Source: a virus
Direction: 5' to 3' (one strand)
Length of the DNA: 32,116 bases
Virus record (IMG/VR): IMGVR_UViG_3300047557_000706
Span: 1-32,116 of that record
Of this stretch, positions 8,285 through 32,116 are shown one piece after another. Positions within the stretch are counted from its first letter, which is position 1; every line of letters begins with the position of its first letter. The translations under genes were made by a program, and so were the position numbers. The notes below the pieces were generated by a model that worked only from the letters and a program-made list of their open reading frames with translations, was not told the DNA's origin and searched no databases.

Positions 8285-8767
8285 GTGGGCTACAGCAAGC
8301 GCCAGTTCCTGACCGCCGCCTTCACCGAAATCGGAATGGCGTCTTACGTCTTCGACCTTCAACCCGAAGACCTGGAATCGGCACTTCGTCGCCTTGATTC
8401 GATGATGGCCGACTGGAACGGCAAGGGTATCCGCCTGGCCTACCCGCTTCCGGGTTCACCGGAAAGCAGCGATCTTGATGGCGAGTCCGAAGTGCCTGAC
8501 AGCGCCAACGAGGCGATCATCGCCAATCTGGCGACGCGATTGGCTCCGAGCTACGGCAAGCAGGTGTCGCCGCTGACCCTTGTCGCGGCGAAGACTGGTT
8601 ACAACACCCTTCTGTCGCGTGCCACGATGCCCTACGAGCAGCAGTTCCCCGGAACGCTGCCATCTGGTGCTGGCAACAAGCCGTGGCGCGTCTACGACGA
8701 TCCCTTTGCCCGTCCGCCGGTCGATCCGGTGTTGACTGGTCCTGAAGGACCGTTGGAGTACAACTGA
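8285..8767 (+). CDS. tail accessory factor, P22 gp4-like
   Basis: A 160-residue protein close in size to P22 gp4 (166), the head-closure protein that binds under the portal and stabilises packaged DNA. The N-terminus (GYSKRQFLTAAFTEIGMAS, then LQPEDLESALRRLDSMMADW) and middle (NLATRLAPSYGKQVSP) match the gp4 family. It starts with GTG at 8285 just after the preceding stop, and its own stop shares a base with the fibre start (TGATG). In P22, gp4 also has peptidoglycan hydrolase activity; whether this one does cannot be read from the sequence. Confidence 0.88.
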   Translation: MGYSKRQFLTAAFTEIGMASYVFDLQPEDLESALRRLDSMMADWNGKGIRLAYPLPGSPESSDLDGESEVPDSANEAIIANLATRLAPSYGKQVSPLTLVAAKTGYNTLLSRATMPYEQQFPGTLPSGAGNKPWRVYDDPFARPPVDPVLTGPEGPLEYN

Positions 8768-11514
8768 TGCCGACCATTAATCAACTACCACTGCGCTCGC
8801 CGGTCAGTCTAGGCGATCAAATCCCTATCTACTCGCCTAACAACGGCGATGCGCGGCGCACTCCGGTTTCAGCGGTTGTTGATCTGGTTGTCAACGGTCT
8901 TGATCTGCCGAATACGGCTGTTCTGTTGACGGGTGATCAGACAGTCGGTGGGACCAAGACGTTCTCCAACGCGATTGTCGGGAGCATCACTGGAAACGCC
9001 GGGACCGTCACGAACGGTGTCTATACCACCGGTAACCAGACAATCGGCGGAACGAAGACCTTCTCGTCCGCGATTGTCGGGGACATCACTGGAAACGCCG
9101 GGACCGTCACGAACGGCGTCTATACCACCGGCAACCAGACTATTGGTGGGACGAAGACGTTCTCCAGCACAATCGTCGGGGACATCAGCGGGAATGCTGG
9201 CAGCGTCACCAATGGTGTGTACACCACCGGCAACCAGACAATCGGTGGCACCAAGACCTTCTCGTCCGCGATTGTCGGGGATATTACTGGCAACGCTGCT
9301 ACCGCAACGACCGCGACAACCGCGACAACCGCAAGCAGCGTCACGAACGGTGTCTACACGGTCGGTGATCAGACAATCGGTGGGACCAAGACGTTCTCCG
9401 TTAACCCCATCCTGTCGGCTGGTACTGTTAACGCCATCTTGACCCTTGACGGCAGCAAGCAGATCAGCGCGGTTTCGGGGCTCACTTGGAATAGTGTTAC
9501 CTCAAACCTATCTCTCAATGGTATTACCGTTGGTCGCGGTGGCGGTGATAATACGAATGCCGTACTCGGTTGGCAAGCTCTACCCACTACAAGCGCGGCA
9601 GATTACAATGTAGCCATTGGTTTTCAGGCTATGTTTAGTGCCAATGCTAGTGCTGAAAACAATACAGCTATTGGATCAGAGGCGTTACGCGGTAATACAT
9701 CGGGACAAGCGAACGTTGGGGTAGGTGTTAATGCACTAGAAAGTAACCAAACCGGTGATCAAAATGTGGCAGTAGGCGCTAGTGCATTGCAAGCCAACAC
9801 CGTTACAGGTAATGTTGCGGTTGGCGCTAATGCTTTGACCAAAAATACTACCGGCACGTTCAATACAGCGATCGGTACTGCGGCATTGCAAGACCCGATA
9901 ACCGGTAGTAACAACACAGCAATCGGTGATAGAGCACTAGAACAATTTGGAGGCGCTAGTTCGTCAAATACTGCGGTTGGATGCAACGCGCTACGGGGAT
10001 CGTTCGTTTTAGGATCAAACGCATCTAATAATACCGCAGTAGGTCACAATGCCGGTAGGTTTATTACCACTGGCGGCTTCAATACTATCCTCGGCTCTTT
10101 CGACGGCAACCAGAACTCTCTGGATATCCGCACCACCAGCAACAACATCGTCCTGTCTGACGGTGTTGGCAACCCCCGCTGCTACTACGACGGCCCCAAC
10201 AACGCCTGGATTTGGCGCACGGGTGCGTCGGAGCGGTTGCGGCTTGATTCGTCGGGCAACGTTGCGTTCTCCGCCGGCACCGCCGCCGCCCCCGCACTGA
10301 CCACGACCGGCGACACAGATACGGGGGTGTTTTTCCCTGCCGCGAACACGTGGTCGGTGGCGACAGGTGCGTTTGAGCGCATGCGGATCAGCAGTGCTGG
10401 GAATGTGGGAATTGGGACGACGAGTCCGAATTTCCCGTTGCACGTTGCGGCCGCAGGCAATAATCGCTTGGTCGTGGAATCGACGACAAGCGGCGCGGCA
10501 TTGATAGGCCTATACGCTCCGACAGGTGCGCTGGCAGCATTTAACCAAATTCAGTCGATAGTCGGAGCCACAGAACACTGGGCAATTGGCGGTAACGGGT
10601 GGGAAAACACGCTTACGTTTAGGACCGCCGGCAGCGAGCGCATGCGGATCGCGAGCGGCGGAAATGTTGGTATCGGAACCACGAACCCCCAGGCCACGCT
10701 GCATGTTGCCGGGACTATTCTGTCTGCAAGTCCCTTCGGTAATCTGGCAACTCTGCAAGCAGTTGGCGGTACAGGCTTCAGGTGGACGCTGAATAACGAC
10801 GGCACATATCGCCTACAGCGCACCACTGACGGGTTTGCATCAGTCGCTGCGACTCCGATGCTGTTTGACGCCTCGGGCAACGTCGGTATTGGCATGACAC
10901 CGGGCACGAAGCTCGATGTCCAGGGTGATATCACCGCTCGCGGCGCAAGCATCTCCTCGACCGCGTACATCAACATGGGTGCTGCGTACACAGCCGCGTA
11001 CCTTGAATGGGTTCCAGGATCGAGTCAGCTAACGATCATGAACTCCCAAGCTGGCCCGCTGCGGTTTGCCACCAACAATGGCGAGCGCATGCGGATCACG
11101 AGCGGTGGTAGGGTCGGTATTGGGACGACGGACCCGGGATACGCCCTCACCGTCGCAAACGGCGATATTGGCGTAAAGCGCTCCGCAACCAATGACGGCG
11201 CTATTTTCTTCGGCTCAAACACCGACAACTACATCTATGGCGGCAACGCCAGCAACATCCTTACGCTTGCGACCAACAACTCCGAGCGCATGCGGATCAC
11301 AAGCGGCGGTGATGTTGGTATTGGGACGAACAACCCTGCTGTCAAACTCGAAGTCGCCGGACAAATCCGCACCGAAGCCCCGACAGGCGGCACTGCTGCC
11401 AACTGGCGGCTCGGCACCGTTCACACGGTCAGCCCAACGTCGCCCAACCGCACCATCGAAGTCGATATTGGCGGAACGATCTACTACCTGCACGCCAAGA
11501 CCACCAACAACTGA
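8767..11514 (+). CDS. large repeat tail fibre with YadA-like head domain
   Basis: A 915-residue fibre built from modules. Residues 1-45 (MPTINQLPLR, GDQIPIYSPNNGD) form a short domain shared with the protein at 12037, probably the virion anchor. Residues 55-198 are four repeats of TGNQTIGGTKTFSSAIVGDI type. Residues 280-450 carry about ten NTAIG/NVAVG-type repeats like the left-handed beta-roll heads of trimeric autotransporters. From 489 on, SERMRI-S-GNVGIGT-P motifs recur at about 537, 625, 773 and 840. Such fibres commonly end in an S74 self-cleaving chaperone, but this one ends in a short beta segment (IGGTIYYLHAKTTNN) without it. Bases at about 9480-10080 are A/T-richer than the rest, suggesting module transfer. 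It probably binds a host surface receptor. Confidence 0.85.
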   Translation: MPTINQLPLRSPVSLGDQIPIYSPNNGDARRTPVSAVVDLVVNGLDLPNTAVLLTGDQTVGGTKTFSNAIVGSITGNAGTVTNGVYTTGNQTIGGTKTFSSAIVGDITGNAGTVTNGVYTTGNQTIGGTKTFSSTIVGDISGNAGSVTNGVYTTGNQTIGGTKTFSSAIVGDITGNAATATTATTATTASSVTNGVYTVGDQTIGGTKTFSVNPILSAGTVNAILTLDGSKQISAVSGLTWNSVTSNLSLNGITVGRGGGDNTNAVLGWQALPTTSAADYNVAIGFQAMFSANASAENNTAIGSEALRGNTSGQANVGVGVNALESNQTGDQNVAVGASALQANTVTGNVAVGANALTKNTTGTFNTAIGTAALQDPITGSNNTAIGDRALEQFGGASSSNTAVGCNALRGSFVLGSNASNNTAVGHNAGRFITTGGFNTILGSFDGNQNSLDIRTTSNNIVLSDGVGNPRCYYDGPNNAWIWRTGASERLRLDSSGNVAFSAGTAAAPALTTTGDTDTGVFFPAANTWSVATGAFERMRISSAGNVGIGTTSPNFPLHVAAAGNNRLVVESTTSGAALIGLYAPTGALAAFNQIQSIVGATEHWAIGGNGWENTLTFRTAGSERMRIASGGNVGIGTTNPQATLHVAGTILSASPFGNLATLQAVGGTGFRWTLNNDGTYRLQRTTDGFASVAATPMLFDASGNVGIGMTPGTKLDVQGDITARGASISSTAYINMGAAYTAAYLEWVPGSSQLTIMNSQAGPLRFATNNGERMRITSGGRVGIGTTDPGYALTVANGDIGVKRSATNDGAIFFGSNTDNYIYGGNASNILTLATNNSERMRITSGGDVGIGTNNPAVKLEVAGQIRTEAPTGGTAANWRLGTVHTVSPTSPNRTIEVDIGGTIYYLHAKTTNN
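8929..9396 (+). repeat. 99-bp coding repeats in the fibre
   Basis: Units start at 8929, 9028, 9127 and 9226, each encoding a 33-residue block beginning TG(D/N)QT(V/I)GGTKTFS. The fourth unit is extended by 12 residues through a short GCGACAACC tandem repeat (about 9304-9336, encoding Thr/Ala). A partial fifth copy is at 9361-9396. Copy number could change by recombination and alter fibre length. Confidence 0.9.
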
Positions 11515-26793: not shown

Positions 26794-27004
26794 TGCGCGT
26801 CTCCAGTTCGATCAACAATTCGATGTAGTGCTTGGCCTTTTCCAAGTCGGCAATACCGTTTTTCTTGCGCCATCGACTGATGTACTTGATGACGTTACCC
26901 TCCATGTACCCGATGTTGTTGACATGGATGTATTCGACTGGCTGAATCGGCAGATCCTTGTAGTGATCGCCAGCAACCTGTTTGCTCAAGCTAGACTCAG
27001 ACAT
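26774..27004 (-). CDS. DUF3310 protein
   Basis: A 76-residue protein containing the compact DUF3310 pattern: DHYKDLPIQPVEYIHVNNIG followed by YMEGNVIKYISRWRKKNGIA and DLEKAKHYIELLIEL. The same domain occurs in T7 gp1.7, a nucleotide kinase, but usually stands alone with unknown activity. I chose ATG 27004, with GGAGA five bases upstream, over an earlier in-frame start that lies inside the polymerase gene. It overlaps the polymerase by 19 bases and VRR-NUC by 20. Confidence 0.9.
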   Translation of the reverse strand: MSESSLSKQVAGDHYKDLPIQPVEYIHVNNIGYMEGNVIKYISRWRKKNGIADLEKAKHYIELLIELETRNARKAD

Positions 27005-28824
27005 AGCTTCTCCACTTCCTCGACGTAGTAACCAAAGTCCACCGGCAGCACGGCATCCTCGATGCGGTTGCACACTTGGACGTTCCATCCAGACTCAACC
27101 CCGATGCGCCGCCACTCGGTCTTACCCTTGAGGGGCGGCATCACCTTCGTCAGCGGCCTACCACCCCGGGCGATGTAGTACCTGCAGGTGTTCTGCACCT
27201 GCTCCTCGCCCCACAGCAGCCTGCTCGACCGGGGCACCTTGACGCGCAGCATGAAGTCCATCTTGTCGGGCCAGTTCTCCACGGTCTCGCGGATCGGTGC
27301 GCCTTCGAGTAGCACCTTCTCGGCCACCTTCGGGATCACCAGTCCACCCGCGTTCTGGTGCCAGCCAACCTTCCACTCGTAGGCACCCTTGCGCTTGACC
27401 GACCCGTCCTCGTACTCACCGATGTAGTTGTTGACGTCGCGCAGGAACATACGCCGGTAGCGCACTTGTTCGAGGTTGAGCTTGGTCAGCCGCATCCACC
27501 AAGCGCACGCCTCGTCCACCGCTGCCACCTGGCTGCGCGGCACGCGCACCGTGACACCATCGGTGTTGACCTGCACGATGCTCAACCCCGGCACCTTCAG
27601 CATGTTCTCGGCCAGCAGGCACAGCAGAAGCTGCCCGTTGAGCGTGATCGACATGGTGAACAGCGGGTCATAGAAGACGCTGAATCGGTTGTTGCTGTCG
27701 CCGTAGACCCCGTTCAGCGCGAGCTTGAGCATGGCGCTCTCAGCCGACTTCTTGGGGTACTGCTTGCGCTGCTCGAACAGGTTGCCGTAGATGCTCGTGA
27801 ACTCGCGCCCCAGGTGCGCCGGGGCGAACCCGTTCGTGATGGCGAGGTTCGGGTAGTAGCTGGTGACGTCTAGGTCGATGATGACGTGCTCGTCGTCGGA
27901 CTCGACCACCACGTTCTCAAGCGAGCCATGGATGCCACCCAGGCCGAAGACGAACGTGAACCCGTCCACCGTCGCCGTGAGGTCGGTGAAGACCCCCTTG
28001 GTCTCGGTGATCGTCTGCGCCTTGAGCCAGTCCAGCACCCGCTGGAACTCGGACCGCTCGAACGTGATCCACGGCAGGATGGCGTCGCGCAGCGCGATGC
28101 TCGGGCGCGGGGTCTGTCTGGGCTTGCGACCATCGGGGCCGAAGTCGTAGCACTGGACACCGGCCTCCTCCAGCTTCATCACGAAGAAGTCCTTGCCGAT
28201 CTTCGTGTCGTTGTGGTTCAGGAAGTCGCGCCCGTACTTGACCGTCAGTTCCTCACGGAACCGGATCATGTCGAGCGTGTGGTGGTAGAACCGCTTCGTC
28301 TCGGCGACGTCGTGGCGGTTGTACCGCTTGAGCACTTCGACCTGCTCCCGGGTCAGTACCGTCCCCACCGGGAACGGCAAATCCTCGATGCTGTCGGAGC
28401 GCATGTTGAACTCCAGCGCCTTGAGGCTGGTGCTGCGGGCCTTGTTGTCGAAGTGGTGGATCTTGAACAGGTCGATCTGCTCGACCACCCGGTCGCTCGG
28501 ACGTACCTGGTGCAGCCAGCGGTCGTCACCCTCATCGGTCTGCGAGTCGATGATGGCCTGCGCCTTGGCGTACAGGATGCCCGCGTTGCACGAGCCCATC
28601 ATCAGCAGTTGGTGCAGCACCGGGTAGTCGAACCCGATGCTGTTGAACCCCACCATGCGGGCCTTTCGGTCAGCGAGCCAGCGCACGAACTCGACGATCT
28701 CTCGGGAGTCGTTGCGCCAGTCGCTGATCTCGAACATCCAGCAGATCGGCGCAATGGCGTGCTCGACGGACATTGTGAAGACGTTCGGATACGTCTCGAC
28801 GTCCCAGATGAAGTCATTGGTCAT
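26986..28824 (-). CDS. family B DNA polymerase
   Basis: A 612-residue DNA polymerase. Proofreading exonuclease motifs: D8-x-E10 in WDVETYPN, FNSIGFD with D66, and YNRHD (Y168, D172). Polymerase motifs: A at D319-V-T-S-Y-Y-P325, B at K367-L-A-L-N371-G-V-Y-G375, and C at V-N420-T-D422-G. Motif C has N in place of the usual first D of DTD, while the second (catalytic) D is kept. GGIHGS just before motif A matches the family too. It is shorter than T4-like enzymes and has no extra protein-priming insertion that I can place. It presumably copies the phage genome. Its ATG at 28824 has only a weak ribosome binding site after a strong hairpin. Confidence 0.92.
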   Translation of the reverse strand: MTNDFIWDVETYPNVFTMSVEHAIAPICWMFEISDWRNDSREIVEFVRWLADRKARMVGFNSIGFDYPVLHQLLMMGSCNAGILYAKAQAIIDSQTDEGDDRWLHQVRPSDRVVEQIDLFKIHHFDNKARSTSLKALEFNMRSDSIEDLPFPVGTVLTREQVEVLKRYNRHDVAETKRFYHHTLDMIRFREELTVKYGRDFLNHNDTKIGKDFFVMKLEEAGVQCYDFGPDGRKPRQTPRPSIALRDAILPWITFERSEFQRVLDWLKAQTITETKGVFTDLTATVDGFTFVFGLGGIHGSLENVVVESDDEHVIIDLDVTSYYPNLAITNGFAPAHLGREFTSIYGNLFEQRKQYPKKSAESAMLKLALNGVYGDSNNRFSVFYDPLFTMSITLNGQLLLCLLAENMLKVPGLSIVQVNTDGVTVRVPRSQVAAVDEACAWWMRLTKLNLEQVRYRRMFLRDVNNYIGEYEDGSVKRKGAYEWKVGWHQNAGGLVIPKVAEKVLLEGAPIRETVENWPDKMDFMLRVKVPRSSRLLWGEEQVQNTCRYYIARGGRPLTKVMPPLKGKTEWRRIGVESGWNVQVCNRIEDAVLPVDFGYYVEEVEKLCLSLA

Positions 28825-28875: not shown

Positions 28876-29532
28876 TCACTGCTGCATGAACGGCGGCACG
28901 GGCATCGCCGGCTGCATGAACGCCGGGGCCGGTGCGGCAGCGGGTGCGGCCTGCACCGCGCCGAACATGCCCGAGGCGTCCACGCGGCCCTCACCGAACG
29001 CCTGATCGTCGCCCGCGAACTGGACGGCCACGAGGTCGGCACGCACGCCACGCCCGTGCCTGTTATCTTGCAGCCACGGTTTCACAGCCACGTTGACCCT
29101 GCAGCCGCCGTACATCGCCCGGGTCAGTTGCTGGTAGGCCATCGTGTTGTTCGGGTCAATGGGCGAGCCGTCCGACTGGATGATCTGCGGCGGAGTGTCG
29201 ACACCTGCGGTGAGATACATCTGGCCGGCGTAGCCGTCGTAGATCTGGAAGGTCTTACCGTTGACCTTCTGGTTGCCGTCGCCGTAGCAGCGCAGCTTGC
29301 GGTCATTCTGGATCATGCCCATGACGGTCTGGGCGTGTTCCTTCCACTTCACCAGCGCCATCTCGTTCACTCGGCGCATGAACTGCGCGAAGCCCGGGTG
29401 GTCGGGCGGCATGATGAAGTCGGCACTGTAGGACACGCGCTCCTTGCCGGTCTCGGGCGACACCTTGCGCTGCGGCTCGACGAGGTGCGGGAACGACAGG
29501 CGCACGTTGGATAGGAAGATTACGTCAGACAT
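28876..29532 (-). CDS. DUF2815 single-strand DNA-binding protein
   Basis: A 218-residue protein of the DUF2815 family, regarded as phage single-strand DNA-binding proteins. The family start (DVIFLSNVRLSFPHLVEPQR) and segments YSADFIMPPDHPGF and GGCRVNVAVKPWLQDN are recognisable. The last 35 residues (QAAPAAAPAPAFMQPAMPVP and PPFMQQ) form a low-complexity tail, like the flexible tails through which such proteins recruit partners. It is encoded between the DUF2800 nuclease and the polymerase, as in other phage replication modules. GAGG upstream of the start is not obvious. Confidence 0.88.
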   Translation of the reverse strand: MSDVIFLSNVRLSFPHLVEPQRKVSPETGKERVSYSADFIMPPDHPGFAQFMRRVNEMALVKWKEHAQTVMGMIQNDRKLRCYGDGNQKVNGKTFQIYDGYAGQMYLTAGVDTPPQIIQSDGSPIDPNNTMAYQQLTRAMYGGCRVNVAVKPWLQDNRHGRGVRADLVAVQFAGDDQAFGEGRVDASGMFGAVQAAPAAAPAPAFMQPAMPVPPFMQQ

Positions 29533-29547
29533 GATTACCTCACAGGG

Positions 29548-30819
29548 TTACGAAAGCCACGCCGGCAGTTCAGCCGGCTTCTCGACGGCGCTAAACATCG
29601 GCGCCGCATTCAGTTGGACGGCGGTACGAGAGTCAGCAGCCAGCGCAACGACAGGCTTGCCCATCGTCTTGACCACATACTCGCGCTCCATCGTCTCCAG
29701 TTGCCTCTTGGTCAGTTGGACGTCGGTGCCGTCCCGCTTCTTCCAGGTCAGTTTCTCGGCCTTGGCGGGGCTGACGAGCTTCGTCTCGTAGATCGCGGTC
29801 TTGGGGATGCCGAGCTTGACGAGCTTCTCGGCCATCTCCTCCTCGGACAGCTTCCACGAGCGGGTGCCCTTGCCGTTGACCATCTTGAGCCCAGGCATGT
29901 CGATGCCGGCCTTGAGCCTGCGCTCCGCCTCCTTCTCGACAGCCTCCAGCAGTTGCCGCATCAGCGGTGCAGCCTCCATGATCTGCACGATCTGTTGGTC
30001 GGGCATCGTGGTTGGGTCTTTGCTCGCAGCACTCGACGCGATGTCCATACGATCCACCACCTCCAGCGCCTTGTTCGCCAGGGCACTGCAGCCACCACGG
30101 TGGGCACAGTACCGGCACTGCTTTTCACCAGGCACCAATGGCGCATCGGGCCGGTCGGTCGCTGCGGCCTGCACCACGATGTCGCGGGCCACGACGTCGA
30201 CCACCTCGTCGATGGTGTAGTCCTTCGAGCGGATCGCCTCGCCACCCTTGAGCGCGAGCTTCGGCTGGATGACGGTCAGGCGCACCGTGTCGAAAGGATA
30301 GCGATAGGGCTTCGCCACCCGCAGCGCAGACAGTGCGCCGACAGCGTACTGCTCCATCTGCAGGATGGCCGAGTCCCATGCGTCGTTCATCCCGTCCTTG
30401 TAGTCGATGACCTCCAGCACACCGTTCAGTTCGTCGTGGATCTGTACGTCCACCGTGCCGCTGAGATCGTTGCGACTGGTCAGGAACGAGGGATCGACGC
30501 GCTGCTCGGCGATCACCTTCGCCATGCCCATCGTCGGCGCGACTCGGCTGCGGATATAGGTGAGCGCCGTACCGACGCGCAGAGCACGCTCCGCGTCCAC
30601 GACGAACTGGCCTTCGTGGTCCTTCAGAGTCACGTCGACCAGCGTCAACGGATTCCAGATCTCGTTGACGATGCAGTGCTCCAGCAGCGTGTGCGTGTGC
30701 GTACCATCGACAGCAGCCGATCCTCCCGGCTGCTCGGGATAGGCGCGCTCCTCGCGCACGCTGCCAGGGCAGACGGACCAGCGGTGCCGTTTGCTCGGTG
30801 ACAGCGTGGCGCGGCTCAT
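29548..30819 (-). CDS. PD-(D/E)XK nuclease with Fe-S-type cysteines (DUF2800, Cas4/RecB-like)
   Basis: A 423-residue protein of the DUF2800 family. Nuclease motifs: GTHTHTLLE (39-47; H43), SGTVD with D124, E136-V-I-D139-Y-K141, and QMEQYA with Q154/Y158. Cys17 near the start and C235-x2-C238-x5-C244 near the end of the nuclease domain form the four-cysteine pattern of 4Fe-4S clusters in Cas4 and AddB. The C-terminal 170 residues are helical. A RecB/Cas4-type exonuclease role in recombination with the DUF2815 protein is inferred. The start ATG 30819 overlaps the preceding stop (ATGA); an upstream start would lie inside that gene. Confidence 0.88.
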   Translation of the reverse strand: MSRATLSPSKRHRWSVCPGSVREERAYPEQPGGSAAVDGTHTHTLLEHCIVNEIWNPLTLVDVTLKDHEGQFVVDAERALRVGTALTYIRSRVAPTMGMAKVIAEQRVDPSFLTSRNDLSGTVDVQIHDELNGVLEVIDYKDGMNDAWDSAILQMEQYAVGALSALRVAKPYRYPFDTVRLTVIQPKLALKGGEAIRSKDYTIDEVVDVVARDIVVQAAATDRPDAPLVPGEKQCRYCAHRGGCSALANKALEVVDRMDIASSAASKDPTTMPDQQIVQIMEAAPLMRQLLEAVEKEAERRLKAGIDMPGLKMVNGKGTRSWKLSEEEMAEKLVKLGIPKTAIYETKLVSPAKAEKLTWKKRDGTDVQLTKRQLETMEREYVVKTMGKPVVALAADSRTAVQLNAAPMFSAVEKPAELPAWLS

Positions 30820-31238
30820 GCTGCCGCCTTGAGGGCCTCGACACCCGCGTACAGGGCAGCGTATTGCTCGGGCTTCACTTCGTTGATCGACTGGCACCCC
30901 ATCTGCAGCAGCACCTGCTGGATCTGAGCACCCTTCTGCGGACCCATCGACTGATAGGCACCCATGACGTAGGTGACGAGGCCCTTCTGATCGCCGAACG
31001 GCACACCGGACGCCACGGGTGCGGGCGCCGGGGCGTTGAACGTCGGCGGGGCGGGCATCGCGGGCGCGGGAGGTGCCACGACAGCCACAGGCGCAGGGGC
31101 CGGGGGGATGACGGGCGCCGGGGCAGGCGCTACCATCGGGGCGGCAACGGGCGCCGGGGCATGGGCTGCTTTTGCGTTCAGCGCGGCCGCCAGGGCGTTG
31201 ATCGCCGTGACCAGTTCATCAAGCTTCTGTTCGAGCAT
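30816..31238 (-). CDS. Ala/Pro-rich protein of the replication operon
   Basis: A 140-residue protein with three parts: a short helix (MLEQKLDELVTAINALAAAL), a long Pro/Ala/Val linker of about 55 residues (APVAAPMVAPAPAPVIPPAP), and a conserved-looking helical C-terminal domain of about 55 residues (LVTYVMGAYQSMGPQKGAQI, ending YAALYAGVEALKAA). The C-terminal pattern is familiar from phages that carry the DUF2800/DUF2815 pair, but its function is unknown; it may be an adaptor. ATG 31238 with AAGGAG six bases upstream is the only well-placed start. It overlaps the upstream RHH gene by 20 bases and the nuclease gene by four. Confidence 0.75.
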   Translation of the reverse strand: MLEQKLDELVTAINALAAALNAKAAHAPAPVAAPMVAPAPAPVIPPAPAPVAVVAPPAPAMPAPPTFNAPAPAPVASGVPFGDQKGLVTYVMGAYQSMGPQKGAQIQQVLLQMGCQSINEVKPEQYAALYAGVEALKAAA

Positions 31239-31416
31239 AGAGACTCTCCTTTTTCGGGGTTGCGGGGGGTTGAATGACGAGTCGGTCGTCGAGGAATGCT
31301 TCGACCAACTCGCGTATGACCTCGGCGACACCACCGAACCGCGCCGCCTTGTCGCGGAATCGTTTGTGTGTCCCCGGGTGCATGCGCACGGTGAGGAAGG
31401 TAGATCGCTGTGTCAT
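31219..31416 (-). CDS. ribbon-helix-helix regulator
   Basis: A 65-residue Arc/MetJ-type protein. MTQRSTFLTVRMHPGTHKRF gives the beta strand and start of helix one; RFGGVAEVIRELVEAFLDDR gives the second helix with the turn between. It ends in a short charged tail. Homodimers of this type bind inverted repeats with their strand pair. It is the first gene of the leftward operon, with its start codon beside an inverted repeat that overlaps the promoters, so it probably represses its own promoter and the facing one. ATG 31416 is preferred over an ATG 45 bases upstream because that would start within the promoter/operator. Confidence 0.85.
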   Translation of the reverse strand: MTQRSTFLTVRMHPGTHKRFRDKAARFGGVAEVIRELVEAFLDDRLVIQPPATPKKESLYARTEA

Positions 31417-31417
31417 G

Positions 31418-31447
31418 TTGCGCACTGTACCACAACGGTGATACGAT
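31418..31447 (+). promoter_or_regulatory. candidate rightward promoter
   Basis: TTGCGC (31418-31423) and TACGAT (31442-31447), separated by 18 bases, with TG one base before the -10 box (extended -10, TGATACGAT). It points to the gene at 31478, about 30 bases away. Confidence 0.5.
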
Positions 31448-31451
31448 GCAA
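31424..31451 (-). promoter_or_regulatory. candidate leftward promoter
   Basis: On the - strand, TTGCAT (31451-31446) and TACAGT (31429-31424) are separated by 16 bases. The -10 match is fair and the -35 match weak (three of six). Transcription would begin about seven bases before the RHH start codon, giving a leaderless or near-leaderless mRNA. Confidence 0.45.
31427..31444. promoter_or_regulatory. inverted repeat, probable operator
   Basis: GTACCAC (31427-31433) and GTGATAC (31438-31444), four bases apart, are an inverted repeat with one mismatch. It overlaps both candidate -10 boxes and lies 11 bases from the RHH start codon, so binding of a regulator would block both directions. Confidence 0.5.
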
Positions 31452-31477
31452 GCACGTTCAACGACAGGAGAGAAGCG

Positions 31478-31852
31478 ATGACACAACCCGAAGCCCTGCG
31501 GCTGGCTGATGCGCTGCAGCAGCAAACAGTGTGGGAGGGTCATTACGGCCCGAGCTACTTGCGCGACTTGTTGCCAGAAGCCGCCGCCGAACTGCGCCGC
31601 TTGCACGCGGAGAATGAAGCACTGCGCGAAGCCAACGAGGCTTTCGGCAAGCGGCAAGAATGGTGGAACGAGCGGATGGTTGCCCTTGAGCAGCAGCGCG
31701 ATGCGCTGCTGGAGGCGTTGAAAAGCACGGGGCTGTTTTTGCACCACTGCTGGTGCGATGTGCAGATGAACGACTACTCGTTCGAGAAGCTGAATCAGCA
31801 GATGCAGATCGTTGACGCCGCCATCGCCAAAGCAGAAGGAGAGGAAGCATGA
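31478..31852 (+). CDS. accessory coiled-coil protein of unknown function
   Basis: A 124-residue helical protein beginning MTQPEALRLADALQQQTVWE, with LPEAAAELRRLHAENEALRE and EQQRDALLEALKSTGLF in the middle, and ending MQIVDAAIAKAEGEEA. I recognise the start and the coiled-coil pattern (AAAELRRLHAEN) from accessory genes in phages and prophages of Burkholderiales; function unknown. AGGAGA seven bases upstream is a strong ribosome binding site. It is the first gene right of the divergent promoters, and its stop overlaps the next start (ATGA). Confidence 0.75.
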   Translation: MTQPEALRLADALQQQTVWEGHYGPSYLRDLLPEAAAELRRLHAENEALREANEAFGKRQEWWNERMVALEQQRDALLEALKSTGLFLHHCWCDVQMNDYSFEKLNQQMQIVDAAIAKAEGEEA

Positions 31853-32116
31853 CCACCCTACGCGAAGCCGCCCAGCAGGCGCTGGATGCGTTGGAGAAAG
31901 CCGTTGTTGCCTTCGGTCCTGGGTTGACGTTGCAGCAAAACGCCATCACAGCCCTCCGCTCCGCCCTGGCGCAGCAGGCCGAGGGAGGGTGCAATTTGCC
32001 ACCCCCCTTGCAAGTCCCATCCGAAGTCGCAGCAACCCTGACCACAACAGACATCGCATGGCTGGAGACGCGCCGCCTGACGAAGCTCTGGCAAGAACTC
32101 GGCCAGATGCGGTGGG
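31849..32116 (+). CDS. accessory protein, cut off by window end
   Basis: An open frame starting ATG 31849 and running 89 codons to the window end without a stop. It reads TTLREAAQQALDALEKAVVA, then NAITALRSALAQQAEGG, a pattern common in accessory proteins of Burkholderiales phages, followed by a Pro/Thr-rich stretch and DIAWLETRRLTKLWQELG. It overlaps the preceding gene (ATGA) and so belongs to the same rightward operon. The function is unknown and the C-terminus is missing. Confidence 0.7.
   Translation, partial: MTTLREAAQQALDALEKAVVAFGPGLTLQQNAITALRSALAQQAEGGCNLPPPLQVPSEVAATLTTTDIAWLETRRLTKLWQELGQMRW

Follow-up and report, generated by a model that had tools for sequence, protein, structure and literature searches.

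An RHH-like open reading frame on the minus strand and a rightward open reading frame on the plus strand are separated by only 61 bp (31417–31477) in the genome of an uncultured phage. This arrangement raises the question of whether so short a gap could hold a single switch for both transcription units and, if so, which genes such a switch would control. The window analyzed here is the complete virus record of 32,116 bp.

Two extended −10 promoters run in opposite directions across the gap (Table 1). Their −10 boxes start 18 bp apart, each with a TG one base before it, and both promoters share nearly the same 34 bp. A strict scan for sigma-70 hexamers detected neither promoter, because each has only 7 of the 12 hexamer bases and is rescued by the extended −10 motif. 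When this motif is credited, using approximate E. coli matrix weights, which may not suit the host, the pair ranks first among the divergent pairs at that spacing in the window, with a minimum score of 9.1 versus 5.3 for the next-best divergent pair. The facing promoters of the original prediction, packed into about 60 bases, are thus the best of their kind in the window by a wide margin. The predicted transcription starts, near 31416 and 31454, lie about 38 bp apart.

Table 1. Features of the divergent promoter region and its flanking genes.
Feature	Position	Strand	Remarks
Leftward −10 box	31424..31429	-	TACAGT, extended (TGG before)
Leftward −35 box	31446..31451	-	TTGCAT, spacer 16
Rightward −10 box	31442..31447	+	TACGAT, extended (TGA before)
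Rightward −35 box	31418..31423	+	TTGCGC, spacer 18
Operator core (predicted)	31427..31444		GTACCAC-AACG-GTGATAC; half-site centres 11 bp apart
Leftward start region (predicted)	31414..31419	-	Start expected on the A of the ATG (31416) or no more than 3 nt upstream
Rightward leader (predicted)	31454..31477	+	Start near 31454; Shine-Dalgarno AGGAGA 31466–31471
RHH-like gene, 65 codons	31222..31416	-	ATG 31416–31414; stop codon 31219–31221
Second leftward gene, 141 aa	30816..31241	-	Shine-Dalgarno and ATG overlap 3' end of RHH gene
DUF2800 / PD-(D/E)XK nuclease	29548..30819	-	Leftward operon
Enc34-type ssDNA-binding protein	28876..29532	-	Leftward operon
Family-B-like DNA polymerase	26986..28824	-	Leftward operon
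First rightward gene, 124 aa	31478..31852	+	Accessory
Second rightward gene	31849..32116	+	Cut by contig end; PrimPol primase follows in relative L080

The near-perfect 7-4-7 inverted repeat described earlier is present, with arms at 31427–31433 and 31438–31444 and one mismatched pair, and overlaps both −10 boxes. Chance alone could account for this repeat, as the 32-kb window contains 72 of the same form with no more than one mismatch; with loops of 3–8 allowed, about 0.9 repeats are expected per 61 bp. Each arm is itself an extended −10 element (TGnTACrmT), and the operator and the promoters are therefore the same bases. Half-sites 11 bp apart are separated by one helical turn, a spacing that would let two RHH dimers sit on the same face of the DNA, as in Arc.

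To place the element in context, relatives of the locus were collected. A search with the RHH protein gave 42 loci in viral contigs, after which 80 were kept with a profile; one phage record (DSL-LC05) and one metagenome-assembled contig were added, and the set was thinned to 40 non-redundant loci. The sole match in a genome collection is a 5.3-kb contig (LJOT01000260.1) from a metagenome-assembled genome labelled Anabaena sp. CRKS33; it has the same phage gene order and is probably a phage contig binned with a cyanobacterium. The best divergent pair falls at a −10 offset of 17–19 bp in 39 of the 40 loci, which share ancestry and are not independent counts, compared to 11.7% of shuffles. The mean minimum score is 9.2 in the relatives and 5.1 (sd 1.9) in the shuffles. 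The relatives also conserve the outer elements, the two −35 boxes, within the equivalent of 31418–31451, in agreement with the footprint span first suggested. A one-base offset between the outer arms meant that an ungapped 38-bp palindrome score overlooked the site in many loci. Rightward strength varies, since the reverse −35 box is often 19–20 bp away.

The site is close to unique. A search of the window with the core returned one site only with fewer than 3 mismatches. In another 15 phage records, exact matches to the core, where there are any, are confined to the RHH locus, and core matches with one or two mismatches elsewhere are near the control level. The RHH protein would therefore regulate locally, with about one target in each genome. 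Conservation across the 40 non-redundant relatives backs the proposal of a shared operator next to the gene for its probable regulator, with binding predicted from sequence comparison.

We describe the protein as RHH-like because its profile matches lie below the curated cut-off: RHH_10 scores 16.6 bits against a cut-off of 27, and no RHH family exceeds its own. Its relatives have sub-threshold matches to HicB, NikA-like, RHH_10, RelB and ParG (best E 0.0015). The AlphaFold2 monomer model places high-confidence helices at residues 14–25 and 30–42, after an extended segment; the strand of the strand-helix-helix fold requires a dimer, which a monomer model does not contain. Searches with this model by Foldseek and VIA found one RHH antitoxin only, DinJ, as a weak match (Foldseek E 9.6, VIA Z 5.2), and sequence searches for solved homologues gave no RHH match. 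In 46 relatives Arg11 never varies; it is part of the segment predicted to insert into the DNA groove. Taken together, these data indicate with good but not complete confidence that the protein belongs to the RHH superfamily and has a divergent sequence. Its gene is predicted to encode an autorepressor and to be the first gene of a leftward replication operon. The DNA encoding the conserved C-terminal KKESLY (31222–31250) also supplies the Shine-Dalgarno sequence and start codon (ATG) of the next gene, and a translation-start constraint therefore accounts at least partly for the conservation of this motif.

The leftward genes follow the order RHH, small gene, DUF2800 nuclease, Enc34-like SSB, polymerase and helicase. 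The polymerase is named after the annotation of the same-position gene in DSL-LC05, with Pfam DNA_pol_B_exo2 below its cut-off. The small gene is syntenic in all relatives examined, and the order RHH, small gene, DUF2800 is kept in every relative with enough flank. Rightward, a relative 98.6% identical to the window (L080) has two accessory genes followed by an 834-aa PrimPol-PriCT_2-DUF3987 primase. Where PrimPol is found, it is always on the strand opposite to RHH and often directly adjoins the operator; nearly all relatives with enough flank have the primase, an exception being L091, where PrimPol was not found within 6 kb. Because the primase lies on that strand in L080 and nearly all other relatives, the rightward arm appears to serve replication, with the accessory genes as its cargo. 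Thus, the assignment of a replication operon to the left holds, that of an accessory operon to the right needs refining, and both halves of the replication machinery would be under the switch.

The near-identity of the window to L080 ends at 31958, inside the second rightward gene (31958–32116 differs), so the accessory arm is mosaic. In two other loci (L113 and L136), the first rightward gene next to the operator looks HNH-type (HIDHINGIKSDNR motif), resembling a mobile gene placed in the rightward arm. Elsewhere in the window, a 915-aa open reading frame (8767–11514) with repeated peptide units (TTGNQTIGGTKTFSSAIVGDITGNAGTVTNGVY) is probably a tail fibre or adhesin.

Several further elements were observed around the operator in subsets of relatives. 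In L107, L108, L111, L121, L144 and others, a GC-rich hairpin with a T run after it points toward RHH. It lies between the operator and the primase start, about 75–165 nt from the RHH ATG, and could be either a terminator directed against the RHH promoter or a structural element in the leader of the primase mRNA. A co-directional gene upstream in these loci was considered and rejected: the reverse open reading frame is the divergent PrimPol, and a test of an operator without a divergent gene therefore fell away. In L033, L108, L121, L002 and others, a conserved short leader frame (e.g. MRRLLATAITNEASV*) lies just before the primase start, its stop overlapping the primase ATG (ATGA). This frame looks like a leader peptide or a conserved RNA element. 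Loci L107–L150 carry a conserved AAAATATTTTT stretch just upstream of the RHH −35 box, resembling an UP element for the RHH promoter; it is absent in the clade of the window.

The leftward mRNA was proposed to be nearly leaderless, and the sequence agrees: the ATG lies 8 nt after the −10 box, without a Shine-Dalgarno sequence. The same short distance (7–8 nt) recurs in 11 of the 40 loci, the window and ten others, with no Shine-Dalgarno sequence outside the −10 box itself. Of the remaining 29, most have the ATG 23–32 nt away and 22 carry a Shine-Dalgarno-like motif. Because of this recurrence, a leaderless or nearly leaderless RHH mRNA is likely to be a clade trait, not an accident of one sequence. 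A leaderless repressor mRNA beside a divergent promoter is familiar from lambda cI transcribed from PRM. As predicted here, the cI gene begins at its own transcription start and faces a divergent partner promoter. However, the lambda repressor is an HTH rather than an RHH protein, acts at three operators in lysogeny control, and its promoters overlap less.

The nearest known system is immI (arc/mnt) of phage P22, which matches in both geometry and logic, so the design itself is already known. In P22, the palindrome between Pant and Pmnt is the Arc operator (mnt-arc-ant). The same scan applied to the P22 record AF217253 finds Pant as TTGACA-17-TATATT (−10 at 38291) and Pmnt as TTGAGA-17-TATCAT (−10 at 38273, minus strand). 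Arc inhibits mnt and moderates ant (PMC11016777). As in the window, the genes diverge from sigma-70 promoters that overlap fully, their −10 boxes starting 18 bp apart, a palindromic operator overlaps both boxes, and an RHH gene is adjacent. The portal and coat proteins of the window phage are P22-like as well. In P22, however, two RHH proteins (Arc and Mnt) control an antirepressor in a temperate phage, whereas in the window one RHH-like protein precedes replication operons and no integrase was found. The operator sequences differ, and some clades of the present lineage are predicted to make an RHH mRNA with no leader. Alignment of the RHH-like protein with Arc and Mnt by hhalign gave no significant similarity (probability 0.9% and 4.1%).

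Two other comparisons are informative. The bidirectional promoters based on sequence symmetry described by Warman, Grainger and colleagues (PMC10268837, PMC12825309) likewise consist of a short symmetric sequence that polymerase can occupy facing either way, though not both ways at once. They have one shared −10 element and starts 7–25 bp apart, usually 18 bp (PMC10268837), whereas the window has two separate, non-overlapping −10 boxes with more distant predicted starts; they are of a different kind. Phage DSL-LC05 (OR003940), of the proposed 'Luchaoviridae' (PMC10611076), has the same gene order and the same operator-promoter element before its RHH gene, which is annotated only as hypothetical protein WJZ48135.1, with no regulatory annotation. 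Its RHH mRNA differs in having a leader with a Shine-Dalgarno sequence, and no long accessory genes intervene between operator and primase.

We consider it probable that the RHH protein is an autorepressor which, when it covers the two −10 boxes, turns off the early replication operons on either side, a model that builds on the observed anatomy, conservation, synteny and near-uniqueness of the site. Host sigma-70 RNA polymerase would take one orientation or the other, never both simultaneously, because the promoters occupy nearly the same DNA. The leftward orientation would transcribe RHH, the small gene, nuclease, SSB and polymerase; the rightward, the PrimPol primase together with the accessory genes. 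Dimers of the RHH protein made from the left arm would accumulate, bind the two half-sites on the same DNA face and cover both −10 boxes, closing both operons together. The RHH protein as binder, repression as its effect, the start sites, and the timing and purpose are the steps that we infer. Integrase (PF00589) was absent from the window and 15 relatives of 33–39 kb, records that may be incomplete, while a control matched in 14 of 14 genomes. A further search, for a T7-type RNA polymerase (PF00940), matched neither its target nor its control. With no integrase in these 16 records, lysogeny control is unlikely, and we favor early shut-off or replication dosage control as the purpose.

The protein might instead be a directional switch, repressing one promoter while leaving the other untouched or activating it, in the manner of P22 Mnt. 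P22 immI holds RHH proteins of both behaviours, overlapping promoters are mutually exclusive, and the arms are unequal, the right one (RHH promoter) being better conserved than the left. The rough symmetry of the operator about the two −10 boxes, however, means that binding there should block both promoters, and we regard a directional role as rather unlikely. A possible link between residue 7 (Phe/His) and decay of the left half-site was seen, confounded with one clade.

Another explanation is that the palindrome is a by-product of two overlapping extended −10 promoters and that RHH acts or regulates elsewhere. Most of the half-site, which reads TGTGnTACrmT on both strands, is indeed sigma-70 preference (TGnTAnnnT). 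Positions A2 and T6 of the −10 box do not vary on either strand (40/40 each), and the TRTG motif is an established −10 extension. The left-arm GTG is degenerate in some clades (e.g. L019 and L044), and promoter constraint alone may explain part of the symmetry. Against this explanation, −10 position 3 is C in 39/40 and 33/40 loci for the two arms. Sigma-70 prefers T at this position and our matrix penalises C, which points to a second reader of the DNA, protein recognition, as the best explanation. The G at −4, unscored by the matrix, is also conserved (27/40 and 36/40), and the RHH gene always adjoins the site, which seems to have no second copy. A mere by-product is therefore improbable. A replication or partition element (an origin, or a ParG/NikA-like binding site) rather than a transcription operator is very improbable: the site does lie between the primase and polymerase genes and the weak profile matches include ParG and NikA-like, but there is a single palindrome only, and its sequence constraint tracks the promoter positions exactly.

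With autorepression as the preferred reading, a broader proposal can be made, about which we are slightly more doubtful than confident. One 8-base word (TGTGnTAC) may be both repressor half-site and extended −10 element, present as two mirror-image copies, so that initiation and shut-off would be hard to separate by mutation. The element would then be the early replication valve of a large uncultured phage lineage, which would repeatedly have put accessory genes rightward and lost or gained the RHH leader. The results suggest that the P22 immI geometry, an RHH operator overlapping two −10 boxes that start 18 bp apart, is found again before replication genes, whether by descent or convergence. 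For a widespread uncultured lineage of P22-capsid phages, whose regulator has so far been annotated as hypothetical, they provide a testable regulatory model, assigning both a regulator and a site at which it can be tested.
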